DNA of 64,000 bases from Paraflavitalea sp. CAU 1676 (GTDB lineage: Bacteria > Bacteroidota > Bacteroidia > Chitinophagales > Chitinophagaceae), in NCBI RefSeq assembly GCF_029223285.1, contig NZ_JARHUJ010000005.1, positions 1 to 64,000 on the forward strand. The letters are read 5' to 3'. Positions 17,566 to 27,938 of this stretch are shown one piece after another. The notes beneath the pieces are model-generated. The model had not been told where the DNA came from and did not search any database. It saw only the letters and a program-made list of their open reading frames with translations. Numbering within the stretch: position 1 is the first letter of the stretch; every line of letters begins with the position of its first letter. A program made the position numbers and the translations under genes.

Positions 17566-17595
17566 TTTGTTTTTCCCGATTACTGATTATTTTTG
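17566..17595 (+). promoter_or_regulatory. Promoter of the aromatic amino-acid operon
   Basis: TTTG (17566-17569), an 18-bp spacer and TATTTTTG (17588-17595) match the Bacteroidota consensus exactly. The leader-peptide ATG begins only 4 bp after the box, so the transcript would start at or next to the start codon. Confidence 0.7.
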
Positions 17596-17599
17596 ATTC

Positions 17600-17692
17600 A
17601 TGTTAACGACAAGAGCATACGGTTTCTTTTACTTTTATTTTTACTTCTACTTTACAAGTAGGCCGGGAATGCTTTTGTTGAACTCAAAATAA
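17600..17692 (+). CDS. Phe/Tyr-rich leader peptide of the aromatic operon
   Basis: A 30-codon reading frame, too short for normal gene calling. Residues 7-18 read YGFFYFYFYFYF, giving six Phe and five Tyr among twelve residues. It then continues TSRPGMLLLNSK and stops at 17690-17692. It sits directly behind an excellent promoter and immediately ahead of a terminator hairpin and pheA. By analogy with enterobacterial pheL it should sense charged tRNA-Phe and tRNA-Tyr through ribosome stalling. The alternating Phe/Tyr codons fit an operon that makes both amino acids. The role is inferred; the codon content and position are directly visible. Confidence 0.85.
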   Translation: MLTTRAYGFFYFYFYFYFTSRPGMLLLNSK

Positions 17693-17742
17693 AAAAGATA
17701 AAATCAACATAAGGATCCCGGCCAAAAGGCCGGGATTTTTTT
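17661..17742 (+). promoter_or_regulatory. Transcription attenuator (antiterminator/terminator) before pheA
   Basis: The terminator is ATCCCGGCC (17715-17723), loop AAAA, GGCCGGGAT (17728-17736), then a T run to 17742. The 8-mer GGCCGGGA of its 3' arm is duplicated at 17661-17668 inside the leader-peptide frame, where it can pair with TCCCGGCC (17716-17723) and prevent terminator formation. The Phe/Tyr codons end at 17653, just upstream. A ribosome stalled early in that run leaves the first copy free to form the antiterminator; a moving ribosome masks it and termination follows. Confidence 0.85.
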
Positions 17743-17790
17743 GTGCCAATACTACTGTCTATCAGTATAGTAGGCTTTAAAAACAACCGG

Positions 17791-18675
17791 ATGGAACAAC
17801 AGCGACAAATGGACCCTTTGAACTCCAGTTCTTCACCCAGTCTGCAGGGAAAGGGAGTACGCGTATCGATTCAAGGCTATGAAGGCAGCTTTCACCAGGT
17901 AGCAGCACAGCAGTTTTTTGGCAAAGAAGTAGAGGTAATTCCCTGCGCCACCTTTCGCGAAGTGGTGAAGATAGCAGCCAATAAAAAGGAAAGCGAAGCT
18001 GGGTTAATGGCCATCGAGAACTCGATAGCCGGAAGCATCCTGCCCAACTATTCGCTGTTGCAAAAGAGCAACCTTACCATTGTAGGAGAGGTTTACCTGC
18101 CCATCAAGCAACAACTGTTGGTGAATCCCGGCGTAAAGCTCGAAGATATCCGGGAAGTCCATTCTCATCATATGGCTATCCAGCAATGCCTGGAATACCT
18201 CGATAAATACAACTGGAAGCTGGTAGAAACGGAAGACACCGCGCTTAGCGCCAAACACCTGCACCAGCATCGCAGCAAGCATATTGCCGCCATCGCCAGC
18301 AAGCTGGCGGCCGACCTCTTCGAACTCGAAGTGGCGGCTCCCAATATCCATACCATGAAAAGCAACTACACCCGTTTCCTGGTGCTGCAGCCCGAAGGGG
18401 TAGCCAGGCCGGTAGCGGAGGCCAACAAAGCGTCGGTCAACTTCCATACCGATCACTCCCGCGGAAGCCTGGCCCGTGTGCTGTCGCGCATTGCAGACGG
18501 AGGCATTAACCTTAGCAAACTGCAAAGTTTCCCCATTCCGGGAACCGATTTCCAATACAGCTTTCACGCAGATATGGAGTTCGATGCACTCGATCAGTTC
18601 AATAAGGTGATAGAACAGATCAGGCCCATCACGGCCGAGCTCAAGATCTATGGCGTGTACAAAAATGGTAAATAA
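17791..18675 (+). CDS. pheA: Prephenate dehydratase with ACT domain
   Basis: A 294-residue enzyme converting prephenate to phenylpyruvate for phenylalanine synthesis. The catalytic dehydratase domain spans about 20-205 (VSIQGYEGSFHQVAA, MAIENSIAGSILPNY, and SNYTRFLVL with the essential Thr-Arg-Phe). A C-terminal ACT domain follows (about 215-294, GSLARVLSRIADGGINLSKL). The phenylalanine-binding ESRP motif of well-studied ACT domains is QSFP here, so feedback control may differ. There is no fused chorismate mutase; that activity lies on the DAHP synthase gene. ATG 17791 is chosen because an earlier in-frame GTG overlaps the attenuator's T-run. First structural gene of the operon; the aminotransferase follows after 28 bp. 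Confidence 0.93.
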   Translation: MEQQRQMDPLNSSSSPSLQGKGVRVSIQGYEGSFHQVAAQQFFGKEVEVIPCATFREVVKIAANKKESEAGLMAIENSIAGSILPNYSLLQKSNLTIVGEVYLPIKQQLLVNPGVKLEDIREVHSHHMAIQQCLEYLDKYNWKLVETEDTALSAKHLHQHRSKHIAAIASKLAADLFELEVAAPNIHTMKSNYTRFLVLQPEGVARPVAEANKASVNFHTDHSRGSLARVLSRIADGGINLSKLQSFPIPGTDFQYSFHADMEFDALDQFNKVIEQIRPITAELKIYGVYKNGK

Positions 18676-18703: not shown

Positions 18704-19885
18704 ATGAATATAGCTACATCAAAAAGGTTAGAAGGTATCGGTGAATACTATTTCTCTCAAAAACTGAGAGAGATAGATGAGCTGAACAAACAGGGCAAAC
18801 AGGTCATCAACCTGGGTATAGGAAGTCCCGACCTGCCGCCGCATCCCGAGGTCATCAAAACCCTCCAGGACGAAAGCGCGAAGCACAACGTACATGCTTA
18901 CCAGAACTACAAAGGTTCGCCGGTGTTGCGTACTGCTGTGGCCGATTGGTACGGCAAGTGGTATGGCGTGTCCCTGAACCCCGATACCGAGATACTTCCC
19001 CTGATCGGTAGCAAGGAAGGCATCATGCACATCTGCATGACCTACCTCAATGAAGGTGATAAAGTACTGGTGCCCAATCCCGGGTATCCAACCTATAGAA
19101 GTGCGGTGAAGCTCGCCGGCGGTACCTGTGTAGATTATGAACTGAAGGAAGAGAATAACTGGTACCCCGACTTCGAAGCGCTCGATCAACTCGTTGGCCA
19201 GGGAGGCTTTAAGCTGATGTGGGTGAACTACCCGCAAATGCCCACCGGCAAATTGCCCGAAAAGGCATTGTTCGAAAAGCTGGTAGCCTTTGGTAAGAAG
19301 CATCAGTTGCTGATCTGCCACGATAATCCCTATAGCTTTATCCTGAACGAATCGCCCAGTAGCCTGCTCAGTGTAGAAGGCGCCAAAGAGGTGGCCATCG
19401 AACTGAACTCGCTCAGCAAGTCGCAGAACATGGCAGGCTGGCGTGTAGGTATGCTGGTAGGCAGTAAAGAACGTATCGACGAAGTGTTGCGCTTTAAAAG
19501 CAATATGGACAGCGGCATGTTCCTGCCCGTACAACTGGCGGCGGCCAAAGCATTGAGCCTCGGCAAGGATTGGTACGATAGCGTGAATGCAGTATATGCA
19601 GCCCGCCGCAGGAAGGTGTTTGAATTGCTCGACCTGTTGGACTGTGTGTACGACAAAACACAGGCAGGCATGTTCGTATGGGCGAAGATCCCGGCAGGGT
19701 ACAAGAATGGCTTTGCCCTCAGTGACGAGATACTGTACAACGCCAATGTGTTCATCACACCGGGCGGCATCTTTGGCAATGCAGGCGATCCTTATATACG
19801 GGTTAGTCTCTGCAGTCCCGAAGAGAAACTCACAGACAGCATTAAACGGGTAAAAGAACACCAGGCAGCCCAGGTTGCCAAATAG
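18704..19885 (+). CDS. Class I PLP aminotransferase, probably aromatic/aspartate type
   Basis: A 393-residue fold-type I aminotransferase. Lys239 in NSLSKSQNMAGWR is the expected PLP lysine, and NPGYPTY (125-131) and CHDNPYSF (205-212) are typical of the aspartate/LL-diaminopimelate aminotransferase branch. Sandwiched between pheA and tyrA, it most likely transaminates phenylpyruvate and 4-hydroxyphenylpyruvate, or prephenate; other substrates are possible. It is 28 bp behind pheA and 55 bp ahead of tyrA on the same strand, so it is under the same attenuator. Confidence 0.88.
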   Translation: MNIATSKRLEGIGEYYFSQKLREIDELNKQGKQVINLGIGSPDLPPHPEVIKTLQDESAKHNVHAYQNYKGSPVLRTAVADWYGKWYGVSLNPDTEILPLIGSKEGIMHICMTYLNEGDKVLVPNPGYPTYRSAVKLAGGTCVDYELKEENNWYPDFEALDQLVGQGGFKLMWVNYPQMPTGKLPEKALFEKLVAFGKKHQLLICHDNPYSFILNESPSSLLSVEGAKEVAIELNSLSKSQNMAGWRVGMLVGSKERIDEVLRFKSNMDSGMFLPVQLAAAKALSLGKDWYDSVNAVYAARRRKVFELLDLLDCVYDKTQAGMFVWAKIPAGYKNGFALSDEILYNANVFITPGGIFGNAGDPYIRVSLCSPEEKLTDSIKRVKEHQAAQVAK

Positions 19886-19940: not shown

Positions 19941-20789
19941 ATGTTTAATACGGTTACGATAGTGGGGGTGGGGCTCATCAGCGGTTCATTCAGTATCGCG
20001 CTGAAAGAAAAAGGCCTCGCTAAAAAAGTGATCGGCGTTAGCCGCACACCCGCCAGCCAGCAAAAAGCATTGGACCTGGGATTGATCGATGAAGCCCTTC
20101 CGCTCGAAGAGGCAATACGCCAAAGCGACCTGATCTATGTGGCCATCCCGGTCGATGCCACCCTGCCGGTGATGAAGCAGGTAATGGACCTCGTAACCGA
20201 CAGGCAGATCGTTGCCGACGCCGGCTCTACCAAGCACGCCTTATGTGCGGCGTTGAACGATCATCCCATGCGCAGTCGCTTTGTGGCCACGCACCCCATG
20301 TGGGGAACCGAATACAGCGGCCCCGAAGCGGCCGTTAAGGATGCCTTCATCGGCCGGGCCTGTGTGATCTGTGAAAAGGAAAAAAGTGACCCCGAAGCGG
20401 TGAGGAAAATAGAAGACGTATACAAGCTGCTGGGCATGCACCTGACCTATATGGGCGCCGATGAGCATGACATGCACGCAGCGTATATTAGTCATATTTC
20501 GCATATAACCTCTTTTGCCCTGGCCAACACGGTTTTGGAGAAAGAAAGGGAAGAAGATACCATTTTTCAACTGGCAGGTGGTGGTTTCGAAAGTACGGTG
20601 CGACTCGCTAAAAGTAACCCGGCCATGTGGGTACCCATTTTTATGCAGAACCGGGAAAACGTGCTGGATGTGCTGAATGAGCATATCAGCCAGCTGAGAA
20701 AGTTTAAAAGCTGCCTGGAAAAGGAGAATTACGAGTATTTACAGGAACTGATCGAAAACGCCAATAAAATAAGACGCATTTTAAAATGA
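19941..20789 (+). CDS. tyrA: Prephenate dehydrogenase
   Basis: A 282-residue NAD(P)-dependent enzyme of tyrosine synthesis (prephenate to 4-hydroxyphenylpyruvate). An N-terminal Rossmann domain begins VTIVGVGLISGSFS (5-18), and 'VADAGSTKHAL' and 'ATHPMWGTEYSGP' (about 114-126) hold catalytic residues seen in TyrA. The C-terminal half is the helical dimerisation domain (HAAYISHISHITSFALAN). No ACT or chorismate mutase domain is fused. It overlaps the next small gene by 4 bp (ATGA), which indicates translational coupling. Confidence 0.93.
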   Translation: MFNTVTIVGVGLISGSFSIALKEKGLAKKVIGVSRTPASQQKALDLGLIDEALPLEEAIRQSDLIYVAIPVDATLPVMKQVMDLVTDRQIVADAGSTKHALCAALNDHPMRSRFVATHPMWGTEYSGPEAAVKDAFIGRACVICEKEKSDPEAVRKIEDVYKLLGMHLTYMGADEHDMHAAYISHISHITSFALANTVLEKEREEDTIFQLAGGGFESTVRLAKSNPAMWVPIFMQNRENVLDVLNEHISQLRKFKSCLEKENYEYLQELIENANKIRRILK

Positions 20790-20995
20790 ACTGGAATTTC
20801 GACTCCATATTTTTCCTGGCCTTTGGCCTGATTTGCCTATATCTCGGATTATCAGGCTCTAAGTGGCTTTTTTGGGGCAGTAAGGAGTCGGAAGTCATGA
20901 AGGATAAGCTGGGAATTCATTACAAAAAGATCGTGAATTTGAGCTGTGGATTGATCGCTGTGGCAATAGGGGCGTGGTTTCTGCTCCGCCGGTAG
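20786..20995 (+). CDS. Small two-segment membrane protein
   Basis: A 69-residue protein with membrane segments at about 8-28 (IFFLAFGLICLYLGLSGSKW) and 50-67 (IVNLSCGLIAVAIGAWFLL), separated by a charged loop. Size and layout recall the Imm17 family of small two-segment proteins, but this is a tentative resemblance. It overlaps tyrA by 4 bp and so is translated with it. I do not know its function; nothing in the sequence links it to aromatic synthesis apart from position. Confidence 0.7.
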   Translation: MNWNFDSIFFLAFGLICLYLGLSGSKWLFWGSKESEVMKDKLGIHYKKIVNLSCGLIAVAIGAWFLLRR

Positions 20996-21057
20996 CCCTT
21001 TTGAAGTGTATTTCAGGGGATTAAGAGGATTATTTAGGCCATAGGCGGCAAGAGCAG

Positions 21058-21065
21058 TACCTTTG
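21058..21065 (+). promoter_or_regulatory. Internal promoter before the DEAD-box gene
   Basis: TACCTTTG, 17 bp before the ATG at 21083. The upstream -33 element is weak. It suggests that the helicase, and perhaps the downstream aro genes, can be expressed independently of the attenuator. Confidence 0.55.
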
Positions 21066-21082
21066 CGCAAATTTTAATTGTT

Positions 21083-22771
21083 ATGATGACTTTCGCAGAG
21101 TTGGGTTTGGATGCGAAGCTGGTACAGGCTACCGACGCATTAGGCTTTAAAAACCCAACCCCCATACAGGAAAAGGCGATTCCTGTTCTTTTAAGTGGCA
21201 CTAAGGACCTGGTAGGCCTTGCGCAGACCGGTACCGGTAAAACAGCCGCATTCGGACTACCTCTGCTGCACCTGATCGATGAAGGACAGAAGTTTCCACA
21301 GGCTCTCGTGGTTTGCCCCACCCGGGAATTATGCCTGCAGATAGTGAATGAAGTGGATCTGTTTAAGAAGTTTCAGACAGGGATGAATGTGGTGGCTGTG
21401 TACGGTGGTACCTCCATTGGCCAGCAGATCCGCGACCTGAAACGAGGAGTGCAGATCGTAGTGGCAACCCCCGGCCGGTTGATTGATCTGATTGAGCGCA
21501 AAGCGATCAATTTAGAACAAATTAAATATGTGGTGCTGGACGAGGCGGATGAAATGCTGAACATGGGATTCAAGGATGATATCGAGTTCATCCTTCAGAA
21601 CACACCCAACAGAGAAAGCACCTGGTTATTCAGTGCAACGATGCCGCCGGAGATCCGCCGCATCAGCAAAAAGTACCTGAAAGAACCAATGGAGATCACC
21701 GTAGGTAAAACCAATACGGCCAACAAGAATATCGACCACCAGTATTTTGTGACCAGTGCCCAGCACAGGTACCAGACCCTGAAAAGGTTGATCGACTTTA
21801 ACCCGGGTATTTATGGCATCATTTTTACCCGTACCAAGGCCGATGCTCAGGAGATCGCCGAAAAGCTGACCCGTGAAGGTTACGATATCGATGCATTGCA
21901 CGGCGACCTTACCCAGCAGCAACGCGACAAGGTAATGGGTGAATTCAGGGAGAAAACCCTGCAGCTCTTAATAGCAACGGATGTAGCAGCACGTGGTATT
22001 GATGTACAGGGTATTACCCACGTAATCAACTACGAATTGCCCGATGATGTGGAAGTGTACACGCACCGCAGTGGTCGTACAGGACGCGCTGGTAATACCG
22101 GTGTTTGTATGTCGATCATCCACATTCGTGAAATGGGTAAAATGCGTCATATCCAGGGTATCGTACAGGTGCCTTTCCATAAATTGGATATCCCTGCCGG
22201 AAAGGATGTATGCCGCAAGCAGTTCTTCCACTTCATGGAAAAACTGTTGCAAACCGATATCAGCCATGGTGACTACGAAAGCTATGTACCCATGCTGGAA
22301 GAGAAGTTCGCCGATGTGAGCAAAGAAGAAGTGCTGAAGCGCGTAGCTGCGATGGAGTTCGACAGGTTCCTGAAGTATTATGAAAATGCGGAAGACCTGA
22401 ATATCTACGATCAGCGCAGAGAGCGTTTCGACAGAAGCACCGGTGATAGAAGAACAGCCGACCGTGGCGACCGCGGCGCGGCACGTGGCGATGCAAGAGC
22501 AAAACAATACGGTGCCGGCAATGGTGGAGACTATGCCCGCCTGTTTGTGAACCTCGGTACCAAAGACGGCTTCTATAAAGCCAGTTTCCTGCAGTTTATC
22601 CTCGACATGAGCGATTTGCGCAAAGAGGTGTTGGGAAGGATAGACATGAAGGAAATGAACAGCTGGATCGAGATCGATAAAAGAGCGGCCAAGCAAATGA
22701 TCGCTGCCATTGATGGTAAGAACTACAAAGGCAGAAGGATCAGGATGAACGACGCGGATAGCCGCCGATAG
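21083..22771 (+). CDS. DEAD-box ATP-dependent RNA helicase with DbpA-like C-terminal domain
   Basis: A 562-residue RNA helicase. Visible motifs are the Q motif (GFKNPTPIQEKAIP), motif I (AQTGTGKTAAFG, about 47-58), PTRELC, motif II VLDEADEML, motif III FSATMP, motif V (ATDVAARGID) and motif VI (HRSGRTGRAG). An Arg-rich linker at about 455-480 precedes a C-terminal DbpA-type RNA-binding domain (ARLFVNLGTKDGFYKASFLQ...KNYKGRRIRM), pointing to ribosome assembly or RNA remodelling. It sits inside the aromatic operon but has its own TACCTTTG box. The following gene is 106 bp away. Confidence 0.92.
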   Translation: MMTFAELGLDAKLVQATDALGFKNPTPIQEKAIPVLLSGTKDLVGLAQTGTGKTAAFGLPLLHLIDEGQKFPQALVVCPTRELCLQIVNEVDLFKKFQTGMNVVAVYGGTSIGQQIRDLKRGVQIVVATPGRLIDLIERKAINLEQIKYVVLDEADEMLNMGFKDDIEFILQNTPNRESTWLFSATMPPEIRRISKKYLKEPMEITVGKTNTANKNIDHQYFVTSAQHRYQTLKRLIDFNPGIYGIIFTRTKADAQEIAEKLTREGYDIDALHGDLTQQQRDKVMGEFREKTLQLLIATDVAARGIDVQGITHVINYELPDDVEVYTHRSGRTGRAGNTGVCMSIIHIREMGKMRHIQGIVQVPFHKLDIPAGKDVCRKQFFHFMEKLLQTDISHGDYESYVPMLEEKFADVSKEEVLKRVAAMEFDRFLKYYENAEDLNIYDQRRERFDRSTGDRRTADRGDRGAARGDARAKQYGAGNGGDYARLFVNLGTKDGFYKASFLQFILDMSDLRKEVLGRIDMKEMNSWIEIDKRAAKQMIAAIDGKNYKGRRIRMNDADSRR

Positions 22772-22877: not shown

Positions 22878-23969
22878 ATGCAAGCGATCGACACCAACAA
22901 TTTGAAGGAACTTGTTCAAAGCAAGTGGAATAAACGTCCCCTGATCATTTCAGGTCCCTGCTCCGCAGAAACAGAAGAACAGGTATTGGAAACAGCACAA
23001 AGGCTGGCCAATACCGGTAAGGTAGACCTGTTACGTGCAGGCATCTGGAAACCCCGTACACGTCCCGGTAGCTTTGAAGGCATCGGAACCAAGGGATTGC
23101 CCTGGATGCAGAAAGCCCGTCAACTCACCGGCCTACCCGTAACTGTAGAAGTTGCCACCGGAAAGCAGGTAGAAGATGCCCTTCACTTCGATGTAGACGT
23201 ACTGTGGATTGGTGCACGTACAACCGTAAACCCATTCAGTGTACAGGAAGTGGCCGACGCGCTGCGTGGTGTAGATGTGCCTGTATTGATCAAGAACCCC
23301 ATCAACCCTGATCTCGAACTCTGGATCGGTGCAGTAGAAAGGGTTGCCAAAGCAGGTATCAAGAACATTGGCCTCATCCATCGTGGCTTCAGTGCATACG
23401 GCAACACCGAATACCGCAATGCACCCATGTGGCACCTCGCTATCGAAATGAAGCGTCGTAACCCCGGCATGCTGATGATCAACGATCCTTCCCACATCTG
23501 TGGCCGTCGTGACATCCTGCAGGAAGTTGCGCAAAAAGCCATCGACCTCGATATGGACGGTCTGATCATCGAAAGCCATATCGATCCCGATAATGCCTGG
23601 AGCGATGCCAAGCAACAGATCACTCCCGAAAAGCTGGCCGAAATGCTGGATTCTATCACCTGGCGTAAAGAAGACAGCCCATCGGAAGAGTTTCACGTTG
23701 CATTGGAAAAACTGCGTCAGCAGATCAATCACCTCGATGATGAACTGATGCAGATCCTCGGCCAGCGTATGAAGATCGCCGAAAAGATCGGTGAGTACAA
23801 GAAGAACAACGATATCACGATCCTGCAAACCAACCGCTGGAACGAGATACTCGATCGCGCTTTCAAGAAAGGCGACAAACTGGGACTTTCCAAAGAATTC
23901 ATCACCAAGTATTTCGACGCGGTGCACATGGAAAGTATCAACCACCAGAACAAGATCATGAATTCCTAA
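22878..23969 (+). CDS. Bifunctional DAHP synthase / chorismate mutase
   Basis: A 363-residue fusion. Residues 1-260 are a DAHP synthase of the short type related to KDO-8-phosphate synthase (LIISGPCSAETEEQVLETA, RAGIWKPRTRPGSFEGIG, INDPSHICGRRD), joining phosphoenolpyruvate and erythrose-4-phosphate. Residues about 275-363 are an AroQ-type chorismate mutase (LRQQINHLDDELMQILGQRM, AEKIGEYKK) making prephenate. The fusion places the first step of the shikimate route and the branch-point step on one chain. It supplies the mutase missing from PheA and TyrA here. Bacteroidota commonly carry this fusion. Confidence 0.95.
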   Translation: MQAIDTNNLKELVQSKWNKRPLIISGPCSAETEEQVLETAQRLANTGKVDLLRAGIWKPRTRPGSFEGIGTKGLPWMQKARQLTGLPVTVEVATGKQVEDALHFDVDVLWIGARTTVNPFSVQEVADALRGVDVPVLIKNPINPDLELWIGAVERVAKAGIKNIGLIHRGFSAYGNTEYRNAPMWHLAIEMKRRNPGMLMINDPSHICGRRDILQEVAQKAIDLDMDGLIIESHIDPDNAWSDAKQQITPEKLAEMLDSITWRKEDSPSEEFHVALEKLRQQINHLDDELMQILGQRMKIAEKIGEYKKNNDITILQTNRWNEILDRAFKKGDKLGLSKEFITKYFDAVHMESINHQNKIMNS

Positions 23970-24130: not shown

Positions 24131-24559
24131 ATGATAAATACCCAGAATAAAGTTTATCTGTTTGTCCATATTATCTGGAGCGTACACAACCGTGAGCCCT
24201 TGCTCACCAAGCCCATCCGTACAATCTTGTTTTCCCATATCCAGAAACGGGGAAGTGAAAAAGGCATCAACGTCCTGGCGGTAAACGGGGTGGAAGATCA
24301 CGTGCACGCGTTGATACAACTGCACCCGGCACAAAACCTGTTGCAGGTGGTGAAGAGCATTCGAACTGACGCGATGGAATGGGTGAACGAAACCAAGCTC
24401 ATCAATGCCCCATTTGAATGGGAAGAACATTATGCCGCACTCTCTGTAAATCCCAGTACCATCAAACAGGTGGTCGATTACATAGGCCGGCAGGAAGAAT
24501 ATCATAAGACGAAGACGCTGGAGAGTGAATTGGAGGTGTTTGATAAAATACAGCTGTAG
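24131..24559 (+). CDS. Y1 (IS200/RAYT-type) transposase-like protein
   Basis: A 142-residue single-domain Y1 transposase. The HUH metal-binding motif is visible as EDHVHALI (about 56-63), and the candidate catalytic tyrosine lies in VVDYIGRQEEYHK (about 116-128). Length and motifs fit intact IS200/IS605 TnpA or REP-associated transposases. It stops only 3 bp before aroB on the same strand, leaving no room for a right-end element, so it is probably a non-mobile, domesticated gene or the relic of an old insertion. A strong hairpin lies upstream. Confidence 0.9.
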   Translation: MINTQNKVYLFVHIIWSVHNREPLLTKPIRTILFSHIQKRGSEKGINVLAVNGVEDHVHALIQLHPAQNLLQVVKSIRTDAMEWVNETKLINAPFEWEEHYAALSVNPSTIKQVVDYIGRQEEYHKTKTLESELEVFDKIQL

Positions 24560-24562
24560 CGC

Positions 24563-25582
24563 ATGCAAAAGAAAACGTATCAGTTCACTGCTAAGAAAGT
24601 AGATTATTACTTCGATGCAGACTTTACTTATCTCGCTAAACTCATAGATAAGGACCATACCATATTGGTGACCGACGAAAATATCTTTCGGGCACAACCC
24701 AAAAAGTTCAAAGGCTGGAAGACGATCGTATTGAAAGCCGGCGAAGAGCACAAAGTGCAGGCTACCGCCAACTCCGTGATCGAACAATTGATCGGAATGG
24801 GTGCCGACCGCAAGACGGTATTGGTAGGAGTAGGGGGCGGTGTAATAACCGACCTCACTGGTTATGTGGCCGCCGTATACATGCGGGGCTTGAAAGTAGG
24901 GTTTGTACCCACTACCGTACTGGCCATGGTCGATGCATCGATCGGTGGTAAGAACGGGGTAGACGTAGGCATCTATAAGAACCTGGTAGGCACCATCCGC
25001 CAGCCCGATTTCCTGCTCTACGACTATAGCTTCCTGAAATCATTACCCGAAAGCGAATGGATCAACGGCTTTGCCGAGATCATCAAGCACAGCTGTATAA
25101 AAGATGCAGCCCTGTTCCGGGAACTGGAAGCCAACAAACTGAAAAAATACCAGAAAGATAAAGCGGCCCTGGGCAAGCTCATCCGCCGCAATGCCGTGAT
25201 CAAGTCGACCGTCGTGGAAAAGGATGAGTTCGAGACGGGCGAAAGGCGCCTGCTGAATTTCGGCCATACACTGGGGCACGCCATCGAGAATATGTATGCG
25301 CTGTCGCACGGACAAGCCATTTCCATAGGGATGGTCGTTGCCTGCAGCATCTCTGCACAGCTGGCGAAGTTCAAAGACAGTGAGCGCGTCATTAAAGTGC
25401 TGGCGCAATACGGATTGCCGGTGCATACCGACTACGACCGGAAGAAGGCATTCGATATATTGAAGATGGATAAAAAGCGGGAGCGAAAAGACATGAACTA
25501 TGTATTGCTCGACAAGATCGGCAAGGGAATTGTGAAGTCGATCCCGATGGTGCAACTGGAACAAATAATCTTACAAAGCTAA
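24563..25582 (+). CDS. aroB: 3-dehydroquinate synthase
   Basis: A 339-residue enzyme for the second step of the shikimate pathway (DAHP to 3-dehydroquinate), using NAD and a divalent metal. GVGGGVITDLTGYVAAVYMR (about 91-110) is the NAD-binding stretch, 'DASIGGKNGVDVG' follows, and the metal-ligand histidines lie in 'LLNFGHTLGHAIE' (about 229-241). Length is slightly under the usual 350-360. It starts 3 bp after the transposase-like gene and ends 3 bp before aroA, so the three are tightly coupled. Confidence 0.95.
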   Translation: MQKKTYQFTAKKVDYYFDADFTYLAKLIDKDHTILVTDENIFRAQPKKFKGWKTIVLKAGEEHKVQATANSVIEQLIGMGADRKTVLVGVGGGVITDLTGYVAAVYMRGLKVGFVPTTVLAMVDASIGGKNGVDVGIYKNLVGTIRQPDFLLYDYSFLKSLPESEWINGFAEIIKHSCIKDAALFRELEANKLKKYQKDKAALGKLIRRNAVIKSTVVEKDEFETGERRLLNFGHTLGHAIENMYALSHGQAISIGMVVACSISAQLAKFKDSERVIKVLAQYGLPVHTDYDRKKAFDILKMDKKRERKDMNYVLLDKIGKGIVKSIPMVQLEQIILQS

Positions 25583-25585
25583 TTT

Positions 25586-26881
25586 ATGATCGCAACGATA
25601 CAACCCTCCGCCATAAAAGGCAGTATACAGGCGCCCACTTCCAAAAGCTCCATGCAAAGAGCTTGTGCGGCAGCCCTGCTGACCAATGGTGTTACTATCA
25701 TTAAAAACCCCGGCAGCTCCAACGACGACAAAGCGGCGCTGGGTGTTATCCGTGGTTTGGGAGCTTATGCGGAACAACTGCCCGATGGTTCCATCAAGAT
25801 CACCAGCAAAGGCGTAAATCCCGATGCAGGCGAAGTGAATTGCGGCGAAAGCGGCCTGGGTATCCGTATGTTTACCCCCCTCGTAGCCCTCAGCAATAAA
25901 TCTATCACCATCAATGGCGAAGGCAGCCTGCTTACCCGCCCGATGGATTTCTTCGATACTGTACTGCCCCAATTGGGTGTGGAGATCATCTCCAACGATG
26001 GCAAACTGCCCCTGAAAGTAAAGGGACCGCTTAAGCCCGCGCCTATCGAGGTAGATGGATCCTTGAGCTCTCAGTTCCTGACCGGATTGCTGTTCGCTTA
26101 TGCCGCTTCAGGTGCCAGCGATGTTGCCCTCAGCGTAAAAGACCTGAAGAGCAAACCTTATATCGACCTCACCCTGCAAGTGATGAAACACTTTGGCTGG
26201 GATGTGGAGAACAGGAACTACGAATCATTCTATTTCGGGGAAGCGGTCACCAAACAAACAACTGCAGAACCCATTCAATATACGGTAGAAGGCGACTGGA
26301 GCGGGGGAGCTTTCCTGCTCGTGGCAGGCGCTGTAGCCGGCGATATCACCGTAAAGGGGCTCGATGTATATTCTACCCAGGCCGATAAGGCGATACTGCA
26401 GGCCCTCATCAGCAGCGGCGCTAAGATATCCGTACAGGCAGAACAAATTGAGATCGGACCAGCGCCTTTAAAGGCCTTCCATTTCAATGCCACCGAATGC
26501 CCCGATCTGTTTCCGCCGCTGGTAGCCCTGGCATCTTATTGCGAAGGCAAAACAGTGATTGAAGGCGCCAACCGTCTTACCCATAAAGAGAGCAACCGTG
26601 CGCTCACGCTACAGGAAGAGTTTGGTAAAATGGGCATCAAGATCGATCTGCAGGATGATCTCATGATCATTCATGGAGGAACCGGCGTACATGGTGCTGC
26701 TACGCATTCGCACCACGATCACCGCATCGCGATGGCTTGCGCGGTTGCTGGATTGAAAGCAACGGGCACTACCACCATCGAAGAGGCACAGGCGATCAAT
26801 AAATCGTATCCCGACTTTTACAGTCACATACAACAGTTAGGTGCAGCGGTAGAAGTGACAGGTGAAAAAGCGCACCACTAA
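25586..26881 (+). CDS. aroA: 3-phosphoshikimate 1-carboxyvinyltransferase (EPSP synthase)
   Basis: A 431-residue EPSP synthase joining phosphoenolpyruvate and shikimate-3-phosphate. It shows the N-terminal 'GSIQAPTSKSSMQRACAAAL' with the substrate-binding Lys and Ser, 'CGESGLGIRMFTPL' (the EPSP loop), 'SLSSQFLTGLLFA' and 'HHDHRIAMACAVA' near the C-terminus. It starts 3 bp after aroB. Full length and apparently intact. Confidence 0.95.
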   Translation: MIATIQPSAIKGSIQAPTSKSSMQRACAAALLTNGVTIIKNPGSSNDDKAALGVIRGLGAYAEQLPDGSIKITSKGVNPDAGEVNCGESGLGIRMFTPLVALSNKSITINGEGSLLTRPMDFFDTVLPQLGVEIISNDGKLPLKVKGPLKPAPIEVDGSLSSQFLTGLLFAYAASGASDVALSVKDLKSKPYIDLTLQVMKHFGWDVENRNYESFYFGEAVTKQTTAEPIQYTVEGDWSGGAFLLVAGAVAGDITVKGLDVYSTQADKAILQALISSGAKISVQAEQIEIGPAPLKAFHFNATECPDLFPPLVALASYCEGKTVIEGANRLTHKESNRALTLQEEFGKMGIKIDLQDDLMIIHGGTGVHGAATHSHHDHRIAMACAVAGLKATGTTTIEEAQAINKSYPDFYSHIQQLGAAVEVTGEKAHH

Positions 26882-26939
26882 AAGGATCAACAAACACTAC
26901 ACGGGGCCCTTGGCCCGGTAAACGTTACAAACAACAGGA

Positions 26940-27938
26940 ATGAACAGTTTTGGCAGAATATTCAGGGTCTCCATCTTTGGTGAATCGCATGGCGAAAGCG
27001 TAGGTATTAACATCGATGGTTGTCCGGCCGGACTTCCCCTCACTGTGGAAGACTTTATGCCCGATATAGAGCGTCGTAAAGGTGGACAGCAAAAGGGTAC
27101 AACACCCCGCAAGGAAGATGATATTCCCATCTTTAAGGCCGGCGTATTCAACAACAAGACAACCGGTGCACCCATCACCATCCTGTTCGAGAACAAGAAC
27201 ACCCGTTCGGGCGATTATGAAAAGCAACGTTCGGTACCCAGGCCCGGCCATGCCGATTTTGTAGCGCACCAGAAATTCGGCGGCCATGAAGATTTCCGGG
27301 GCGGTGGCCATTTCAGCGGCCGCCTTACGGTATGCCTGGTAGCCGCCGGCGTCATTGCCAAAAAACTGCTGGCTACCCAACAAAGCGATGTCAAGGCAGC
27401 TATCCTCGAAATAGGCGGCGAAAGCGACCTGGATAAAGGCCTGCAAAAAGCCATCGATGCCAAAGACACCATCGGAGGTATCGTGGAGTGTCGTGTAAAT
27501 GGATTGCCACTGGGATTGGGTGAACCCTTCTTCGATTCAGTAGAATCTGTATTGAGCCACGCCGTATTTGCCATACCGGCCGTAAGGGGCGTCGAGTTTG
27601 GTACAGGATTCGCGGCAGCGCGTATGTTCGGTGCCGATCACAATGATGCCATTGAAGATAATACCGGTAAAACGCGTACCAACCATGCGGGTGGGGTAGT
27701 GGGCGGCATCACCAACAACAACGAGTTGGTATTCCGTATCGCGATAAAGCCAACCTCATCAACCCCGAAAGAACAGATCACCCTGAACTGGGAAACTGGT
27801 GAACAGGAAACCTTTTCCGTGAAAGGACGCCACGATCTTTGTATAGCGTTGCGCGTGCCTGTGGTATTGGAAGCAGTAACGGCGATGGTGATGGCCGACT
27901 TCTACATGCTGGAGCAACACATCAAAAGAACCATATAA
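26940..27938 (+). CDS. aroC: Chorismate synthase
   Basis: A 332-residue FMN-dependent enzyme making chorismate from EPSP, the last common step. Signatures are FGESHGESVGINIDGCPAG (about 14-32), 'RPGHADFVAHQKFG', 'EDFRGGGHFSGR' and 'TNHAGGVVGGITNN'. It is somewhat shorter than the 350-365 residues of many homologues but reads without interruption. It is 58 bp behind aroA and 4 bp ahead of the DUF952 gene. Confidence 0.95.
   Translation: MNSFGRIFRVSIFGESHGESVGINIDGCPAGLPLTVEDFMPDIERRKGGQQKGTTPRKEDDIPIFKAGVFNNKTTGAPITILFENKNTRSGDYEKQRSVPRPGHADFVAHQKFGGHEDFRGGGHFSGRLTVCLVAAGVIAKKLLATQQSDVKAAILEIGGESDLDKGLQKAIDAKDTIGGIVECRVNGLPLGLGEPFFDSVESVLSHAVFAIPAVRGVEFGTGFAAARMFGADHNDAIEDNTGKTRTNHAGGVVGGITNNNELVFRIAIKPTSSTPKEQITLNWETGEQETFSVKGRHDLCIALRVPVVLEAVTAMVMADFYMLEQHIKRTI

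Follow-up and report, generated by a model that had tools for sequence, protein, structure and literature searches.

A probable attenuator with mixed Phe and Tyr codons, apparently leaderless, upstream of pheA in Chitinophagaceae

It was found that a short ORF rich in phenylalanine and tyrosine codons lies upstream of the pheA gene in the window (the whole 64-kb stretch of DNA that was analysed), followed by competing RNA pairings and an intrinsic terminator (Table 1). Judged from sequence comparison, this element is very probably a ribosome-mediated transcription attenuator of the trp/pheL type. The coding run, the pairing, the terminator, and the spacing are all conserved in relatives. The attenuator would sense phenylalanyl- and tyrosyl-tRNA together. 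An earlier note on this DNA had already read the element as an attenuator, and the conserved leader frame, the pairing, and the geometry of the switch now support that interpretation.

Table 1. Features of the pheA leader and of the genes downstream in the window
Feature	Position	Strand	Basis or remark
-33 box TTTG	17566..17569	+	Sequence
-7 box TATTTTTG (TAnnTTTG)	17588..17595	+	Sequence; 18-nt spacer from TTTG
Leader peptide frame MLTTRAYGFFYFYFYFYFTSRPGMLLLNSK, 30 codons	17600..17692	+	ATG 17600-17602, stop TAA 17690-17692
Regulatory codon run YGFFYFYFYFYF (6 Phe, 5 Tyr, 1 Gly)	17618..17653	+	Three-periodic composition in the family
Segment 1	17607..17618	+	Fold; pairs with 17669-17680; 5′ hairpin competing with the inner antiterminator
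Segment 2, antiterminator 5′ arm	17661..17681	+	Fold, conserved complement; contains GGCCGGGA (17661-17668)
Segment 3, antiterminator 3′ arm	17704..17723	+	Last nine bases are the terminator 5′ arm
Intrinsic terminator	17715..17742	+	Perfect 9-bp stem 17715-17723/17728-17736; T-run to 17742
pheA, prephenate dehydratase	17791..18675	+	Best NCBIfam match 188.8 bits, below the cut-off of 219
aat, class I aminotransferase	18704..19885	+	NCBIfam models below cut-offs
tyrA, prephenate dehydrogenase	19941..20789	+	NF006307, 361.9 bits (cut-off 295)
DEAD-box helicase gene	within 20790-22771		NCBIfam below cut-off; TACCTTTG box in the 293-nt gap before the gene
DAHP synthase with chorismate mutase domain	22878..23969	+	Below cut-offs: 179.7 of 335 and 49.6 of 71.2 bits
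aroB, aroA, aroC	24563..27938	+	All three above NCBIfam cut-offs

The Phe/Tyr leader frame upstream of pheA

The earlier note had described a 30-codon frame with six Phe and five Tyr codons within twelve, and this frame was found as described. The twelve codons of the run, from Y7 to F18, read Y-G-F-F-Y-F-Y-F-Y-F-Y-F. With 11 Phe/Tyr codons in 14, the leader frame has the highest density in the window, while the runner-up has 7; the scan took in frames of 8-70 codons from start to stop, 1526 on one strand and 1976 on the other, nested starts being counted apart. No near copy of the element was found elsewhere in its own genome (next best 28.9 bits vs. 148.6 bits).

Is this leader common in the family? 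I searched 195 genomes of the window's family, 133 of which have a PheA match, at 134 matching places. Upstream DNA was fetched for 130 of the 134 places; those in G131, G041, and G075 and a fragment in G151 were left out. A short frame with at least 6 Phe/Tyr codons in 14 was found upstream of pheA in 128 of the 130 regions. The same threshold was reached on the opposite strand in 26 of the 130 and in 35 of 650 mononucleotide shuffles. With at least 9 Phe/Tyr codons in 14, the counts were 89 of 130 regions, 1 of 130 on the opposite strand, and 0 of 650 shuffles. The leader frame is absent in two of the 130 regions, L103 and L108. The genome G149 has two pheA copies, one with a Phe/Tyr leader (L104, G149:C114) and one without (L103, G149:C75). 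A scan of named genomes, whose loci overlap with the set of 130 regions, covered the best 80 of 208 loci. The leader was found in 78 of the 79 evaluable loci, the sole miss having just 89 bases upstream; one further locus with 45 upstream bases gave no frame. Among these best 80 of 208 loci, the nearest PheA sequences are those of Niastella/Paraflavitalea; the six best are 82-88% identical, and other records are titled Chitinophagaceae.

Beyond the family, 40 regions upstream of pheA were also analysed, a non-random sample hand-picked from the matches listed for other families of the phylum. A Phe/Tyr leader was found in 36 of these 40 chosen regions: in all 5 from the same order, in 28 of the 31 from elsewhere in the class, and in 3 of the 4 from elsewhere in the phylum. 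The four regions without a leader are L177, L192, L193, and L182. Thus, the Phe/Tyr leader of pheA looks like an old element in the phylum.

In the 128 runs of the family, which comprise 1255 codons, 704 codons are for Phe and 430 for Tyr, and at least two Tyr codons are present in 125 runs. The start codon is ATG in 127 of the 128 leaders (ATG was preferred only among frames of equal Phe/Tyr count). By codon position, T occupies the first base in 1153 codons, T or A the second in 1153, and a pyrimidine (C or T) the third in 1233. Such three-base periodicity would not be expected of a tract that is simply rich in U. The sequence behind the run differs in this respect. There, GCCGGGAATGCTTTTGTTGA is read as PGMLLL (RPGMLLL) in some genomes and as (R)ECFC followed by a stop codon in others, while another class reads RVVFAK. 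Since this segment is conserved across several reading frames, it seems to be kept as RNA and not as peptide.

Competing pairings and the position of the ribosome

In the window, three pairings compete with one another: segment 1 with segment 2 (1:2), the antiterminator formed by segments 2 and 3 (2:3), and the terminator. The antiterminator has an energy of -25.8 kcal/mol (folding of 17660-17725). A perfect terminator at 17715-17736 followed by a T-run is present just where the earlier note had placed it. The note had also taken the 8-mer GGCCGGGA for the antiterminator. The pairing of this 8-mer with the terminator 5′ arm holds, but the antiterminator is longer (17661-17681 with 17704-17723). 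There is also a further 5′ pairing, of 17607-17618 with 17669-17680, which has to be added to the note's description.

Terminators in relatives were recognized with a simple purpose-written scanner. An intrinsic terminator was found between the frame and pheA in 125 of the 128 family leaders. The scanner missed L040, L041, and L109; on visual inspection, a hairpin and an interrupted T-run are visible in the former two. These three were left out of the structure tests, which thus comprise 125 leaders. A mutually exclusive antiterminator that uses the terminator 5′ arm was found in the window fold and across the 125 leaders. For the 2:3 pairing, the mean energy was -20.7 kcal/mol with the leaders' own segments, -16.5 with segments swapped between genomes (sd 0.24, 20 permutations), and -8.2 with segment 2 shuffled; for the 1:2 pairing, the corresponding values were -15.3, -12.0 (sd 0.27), and -9.1 kcal/mol, and in both cases the swap and shuffle controls remove relatedness only partly. 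The 2:3 pairing is better than its own shuffles at the 5% level in 121 of the 125 leaders, and the 1:2 pairing in only 86. In 92 of the 125 leaders, segment 2 is perfectly complementary to the terminator 5′ arm over 6 nt or more; with segment 2 shuffled, this holds for 2 of the 125. These complements have 34 distinct core sequences. In L029 and L092, for example, the core is CGGGGG or AGCGGGG, and both arms of the terminator have changed along with the core.

A column-wise alignment of 124 rows, with one duplicate dropped, was also made, together with a separate alignment (A1) of 23 chosen close sequences. The column-wise pair counts for the three pairings exceeded those of shuffles modestly (0.61 vs. 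0.55, 0.73 vs. 0.70, and 0.83 vs. 0.78), probably because the lineages align badly. Thus, I relied on the alignment-free tests. Conservation of the peptide frame and of the pairing in relatives had been set beforehand by the earlier note as a point on which its reading could fall; the leader is present in 128 of 130 regions, and the pairing is kept.

Where would the ribosome stand when the antiterminator forms? The 125 leader RNAs were folded as they are before the 3′ arm of the terminator exists, with a ribosome footprint masked. The footprint was assumed to extend from 15 nt before to 14 nt after the first base of the A-site codon. In this model, the probability of the antiterminator is above 0.5 in 94-98% of leaders (n = 93-125) when the A-site is on one of codons 3-9 as counted back from the run's end. 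The share would be 90% with the A-site on the second-last codon of the run, 30% on the last codon, and 5% on the first codon past the run. In leaders long enough, the antiterminator would stay blocked through about the tenth codon past the run and would be open again further on. Run end and antiterminator arm are 7-11 nt apart (10th-90th percentile, n = 123); in the window, the spacing between the run and GGCCGGGA is 7 nt. From the blocking pattern and this distance, the end of the run seems to sit about where the front edge of the ribosome meets the antiterminator. The modelled geometry is held to be the strongest single argument for ribosome-mediated control.

In the equilibrium fold without a ribosome, the antiterminator is still favoured; its probability is below 0.5 in only 13 of the 125 leaders and is 0.98 in the window. 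With the ribosome placed at the stop codon, the predicted probability is again 0.98 in the window and falls below 0.5 in 48 of the 125. Thus, the off state would have to rest on the timing of the ribosome, on steric exclusion, or on kinetic trapping by the 1:2 hairpin. At least six pairs of this hairpin are expected before segment 3 is made in 123 of the 125 leaders. A four-segment model in which termination takes place on the ribosome-free RNA was considered as well, and it is unsupported at equilibrium, as the same 13 of 125 leaders indicate.

From these observations, I infer the transcript start, the stalling, and the read-through as parts of the following model. Transcription would begin at or next to the AUG; with no 5′ leader in front of the frame, the ribosome would load directly at the 5′ end of the nascent transcript. 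When Phe or Tyr is short, the ribosome would stall in the run (17618-17653) and cover segment 1. Segment 2 (17661-17681) would then be free to pair with 17704-17723, by which the 5′ arm of the terminator is taken away, and RNA polymerase would read into pheA-aat-tyrA. When both Phe and Tyr are plentiful, the ribosome would pass the run and sit on segment 2 while segment 3 is made. With segment 2 occupied, the terminator (17715-17736) would form.

Two other explanations of the element have to be weighed against an attenuator. One is that the ORF is incidental, while the U/A-rich tract serves either as a spacer or to bind an sRNA or an RNA-binding protein. The tract is indeed pyrimidine-rich, Phe and Tyr codons are T-rich anyway, the frame is known from the sequence alone, and, as mentioned above, 26 of 130 regions reach 6 Phe/Tyr codons in 14 on their opposite strand too. 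However, the strict three-base periodicity (T at 1153 of 1255 first bases and a pyrimidine at 1233 of 1255 third bases), the ATG in 127 of 128 leaders, and a distance between run and antiterminator that fits the edge of the ribosome make an incidental frame highly improbable. His- or Trp-run frames, moreover, precede hisG (30 of 30, one probably accidental) and trpE (30 of 30) in the same family. The other explanation is that the leader acts chiefly on the translation of pheA, or in trans through a stable regulatory peptide or sRNA, while the terminator is merely constitutive. In Sinorhizobium meliloti, both the attenuated RNA of trpL and its peptide are reported to act in trans (text of PMC7298713). 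Against such a chief role in the present case, the C-terminal part of the peptide is conserved as RNA in several frames and not as peptide, and the complementarity of the terminator arm to segment 2 is preserved. This explanation is therefore very hard to uphold, while an additional second role of the leader in trans is conceivable beside attenuation.

Known RNA families were also considered. The window has no Rfam match at the gathering threshold, and a riboswitch or another known RNA family was rejected on this ground. The weak matches apart from Phe_leader were judged to be due to chance. The match to Leu_leader (26.6 bits, gathering 50) was judged to reflect a likeness of U-rich codons plus a terminator. 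A sub-threshold match to BTnc231, a Bacteroides sRNA family, covers 17589-17741 of the window (22.4 bits, gathering 80.4).

Promoter and regulated genes

The earlier note had claimed a promoter of the form TTTG-N18-TATTTTTG, and its two boxes are present at 17566-17569 and 17588-17595. The pattern TTTG-N17-20-TAnnTTTG occurs only once in the 64-kb window on both strands. In Flavobacterium psychrophilum, the -7 box TAnnTTTG sits at -12 to -5 according to the text of PMC9723704. If this rule is applied to the window, position +1 is 17600, the A of the ATG. Thus, transcription probably starts at or next to the AUG, and the leader peptide would then be leaderless. A strict TAnnTTTG box was found 4-13 nt before the ATG in 97 of the 128 family leaders, compared with 12 of 2360 other ATGs in the same regions. 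With one mismatch allowed, the box was found in 111 of the 128 leaders (14 more), compared with 169 of the 2360 other ATGs (157 more). A TTG or TTTG at a spacing of 17-21 is present in 83 of these 111 leaders, compared with 272 of 2600 random positions. From the box, the transcript start is predicted to be 0-9 nt from the AUG in 111 of 128 leaders and 0 nt in the window; for 84 of the 111, a 5′ leader of 0-3 nt is predicted. In the named loci, a strict box lies within 15 nt before the ATG in 64 of 78.

I also used the promoter pattern followed by N2-9-ATG as a genome-wide finder of attenuators. It gave 28 matches, one of which is the hisG leader, and the reversed control pattern gave 27. Thus, promoter plus ATG alone is weak evidence, and conservation carries the case. 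This finder was dropped owing to the lack of an excess over the reversed pattern.

Outside the family, a strict -7 box was found within 60 nt in 18 of the 36 leaders. In 15 of the 18, the box lies 17-50 nt before the ATG; in the other three (L160, L161, and L163), which belong to the same order as the window, it lies 7-10 nt before the ATG. Since most of these outside boxes lie well upstream, the attenuation mechanism seems to be independent of leaderlessness. The box distances inside and outside the order suggest that the leaderless start is a feature of the order put on an older attenuator. One may also ask whether the same attenuator is transcribed from well upstream in the family, so that its peptide is not leaderless. 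The 15 distant boxes outside the family are in line with such a start, as are the 17 of 128 family leaders without a box at 4-13 nt even with one mismatch and the 13 of 78 named loci without a strict box within 40 nt. Nevertheless, the box at 4-13 nt in 111 of 128 leaders (97 of them strict), the fitting -33 TTG in 83 of these 111, and the 64 of 78 named loci whose strict box is no more than 15 nt away make an upstream start unlikely, and a start at or next to the AUG is preferred here.

Which genes would be regulated? The earlier note had spoken of a whole aromatic operon. The tight pheA-aat-tyrA group bears this out in part, but beyond tyrA the gaps are larger and there is a helicase gene with its own TACCTTTG box. 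In the named loci, the median gaps within pheA-aat-tyrA are 40 and 5 nt (n = 74), while those from tyrA to aroB are mostly larger. Of 74 named loci, 38 have a helicase gene at this place, after tyrA and before the DAHP synthase gene. The order pheA-aat-tyrA-...-aroG/CM-aroB-aroA was found in 67 of 67 named loci with more than 9.5 kb downstream, and aroC follows in 66 of the 67. In the gaps from pheA to aroC in the window, the simple scanner found no terminator on the + strand. A gene resembling an IS200/REP-type transposase gene lies between the DAHP synthase gene and aroB (24131-24559; 52.1 bits, cut-off 55). In summary, pheA-aat-tyrA is taken as the regulated unit; the DAHP synthase gene, aroB, aroA, and aroC possibly belong to it as well, although this is uncertain. 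The product of the second gene (18704..19885) probably carries out the aromatic aminotransferase step, a role deduced from its neighbours. The enzymes of the pheA-aat-tyrA unit would synthesize Phe as well as Tyr, in keeping with one sensor for the two.

Sister leaders and known systems

The upstream regions of hisG and trpE were read in the same family. Of 45 genomes searched for each gene, 36 have a match for hisG and 35 for trpE, and 30 loci each were read. A frame with at least 3 His in ten codons was found upstream of hisG in 30 of 30 loci (that of L359 is probably accidental), compared with 4 of 30 on the opposite strand. A WWW frame was found upstream of trpE in 30 of 30 loci, while the threshold used, 2 Trp in ten codons, was reached on the opposite strand in 8 of 30. 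As with pheA, these leaders have a run of cognate codons, and a hairpin-like sequence with a T-run is seen downstream by eye; they differ from the pheA leader in peptide and RNA sequence. The window's own genome has both of them, a hisG leader MNIFTHIHHHHHTYPSR (L282, G000:C19, ~242.58 kb) and a trpE leader MVLNKQNNQWWWHTNSIRGL (L297, G000:C19, ~250.6 kb). A strict -7 box lies 4-10 nt before the ATG in 20 of 30 hisG leaders. In trpE leaders, it lies 4-8 nt before the ATG in 7 of 30, and many others have a CATATTTG-like box there by eye. Upstream of ilvD, clear runs of branched-chain (Ile/Val) codons were found in 2 of 21 loci (L304 and L305; MLNRIINNITNNSVIIIVVVIIISVTGGGV in L305).

There is about an even chance that the Phe/Tyr, His, and Trp attenuators of Chitinophagaceae form a class of leaderless switches, of which the pheA member reads two amino acids in one interleaved run (OR logic). 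In such a class, promoter and start codon would be fused. Ribosomes would bind the very beginning of the nascent RNA with no Shine-Dalgarno sequence involved, and ribosome-polymerase coupling would be timed from the 5′ end. With the pheA member, one sensor would serve both branches of the regulated pathway. The case is weakest for Trp, since only 7 of 30 trpE leaders have the strict box near the ATG. Shine-Dalgarno sequences are little used in Bacteroidota. The text of PMC9723704, for its part, speaks of an absence of Shine-Dalgarno sequences.

If the model is true, a large family of Bacteroidota would rely on classical ribosome-mediated attenuation as a main means of controlling aromatic, His, and Trp synthesis. 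The family would offer a natural set of leaderless attenuators, whose regulatory codons begin just a few codons from the 5′ end, and a two-amino-acid sensor with natural sequence classes suited to mutational tests. According to the texts of two studies, leaderless mRNAs account for 5.5% in F. psychrophilum (PMC9723704), and 5′ UTRs shorter than 10 nt for ~3.7% in Bacteroides thetaiotaomicron (PMC7366714). Since leaderless mRNAs are so rare and yet would be concentrated in attenuators, a timing advantage of leaderless initiation becomes testable.

How does the element compare with known systems? In enterobacteria, pheL-pheA and trpL have a short frame of cognate codons and competing hairpins, with an intrinsic terminator before pheA. 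Compared with the enterobacterial pheL, the window has mixed Phe/Tyr codons, a putative lack of the 5′ leader, and an aminotransferase gene and tyrA after pheA. The window matches Rfam RF01859 (Phe_leader) below threshold, although across the full model, with 35.1 bits where the gathering threshold is 55. Thus, it is not a member of Phe_leader by the family's own test, though it would work like the Phe_leader attenuators. Among 20 relatives scanned, 3 matched Phe_leader at E values up to 0.05, the best with 42.4 bits. Lyubetsky and colleagues reportedly carried out comparative work on attenuators, PMC4833913 among it. Leader peptides were known only from Proteobacteria and Actinobacteria, with Firmicutes added, according to the text of PMC2965389 (2010). 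As a precedent for a leaderless attenuator, the text of PMC7298713 describes a trpL RNA of S. meliloti that starts with the ATG of the leader frame; this case concerns another phylum, the trp operon, and a peptide of 14 residues.

The earlier note knew of no description in this lineage, a statement that has to be softened. In the same phylum as the window, the text of PMC9723704 reports leader-peptide clues before amino-acid operons of F. psychrophilum, with 5′ elements of pheA and hisG, and the pheA element is present in other Flavobacteriaceae. In the text compared here, no peptide, Phe/Tyr codons, or geometry are given for the two elements. Short frames reminiscent of leader peptides are mentioned in the text of PMC7366714. 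In the full-text literature searched, with subscription papers mostly outside the search, neither a Phe/Tyr leader nor leaderless attenuators in Bacteroidota were found as the subject of a paper. Since clues of attenuation and a pheA 5′ element have already been noted in Flavobacterium, the kind of element is known. The principle is classical, and the apparent start at the first base of the RNA together with the putative joint sensing of two amino acids is an unusual, widely conserved version of it.
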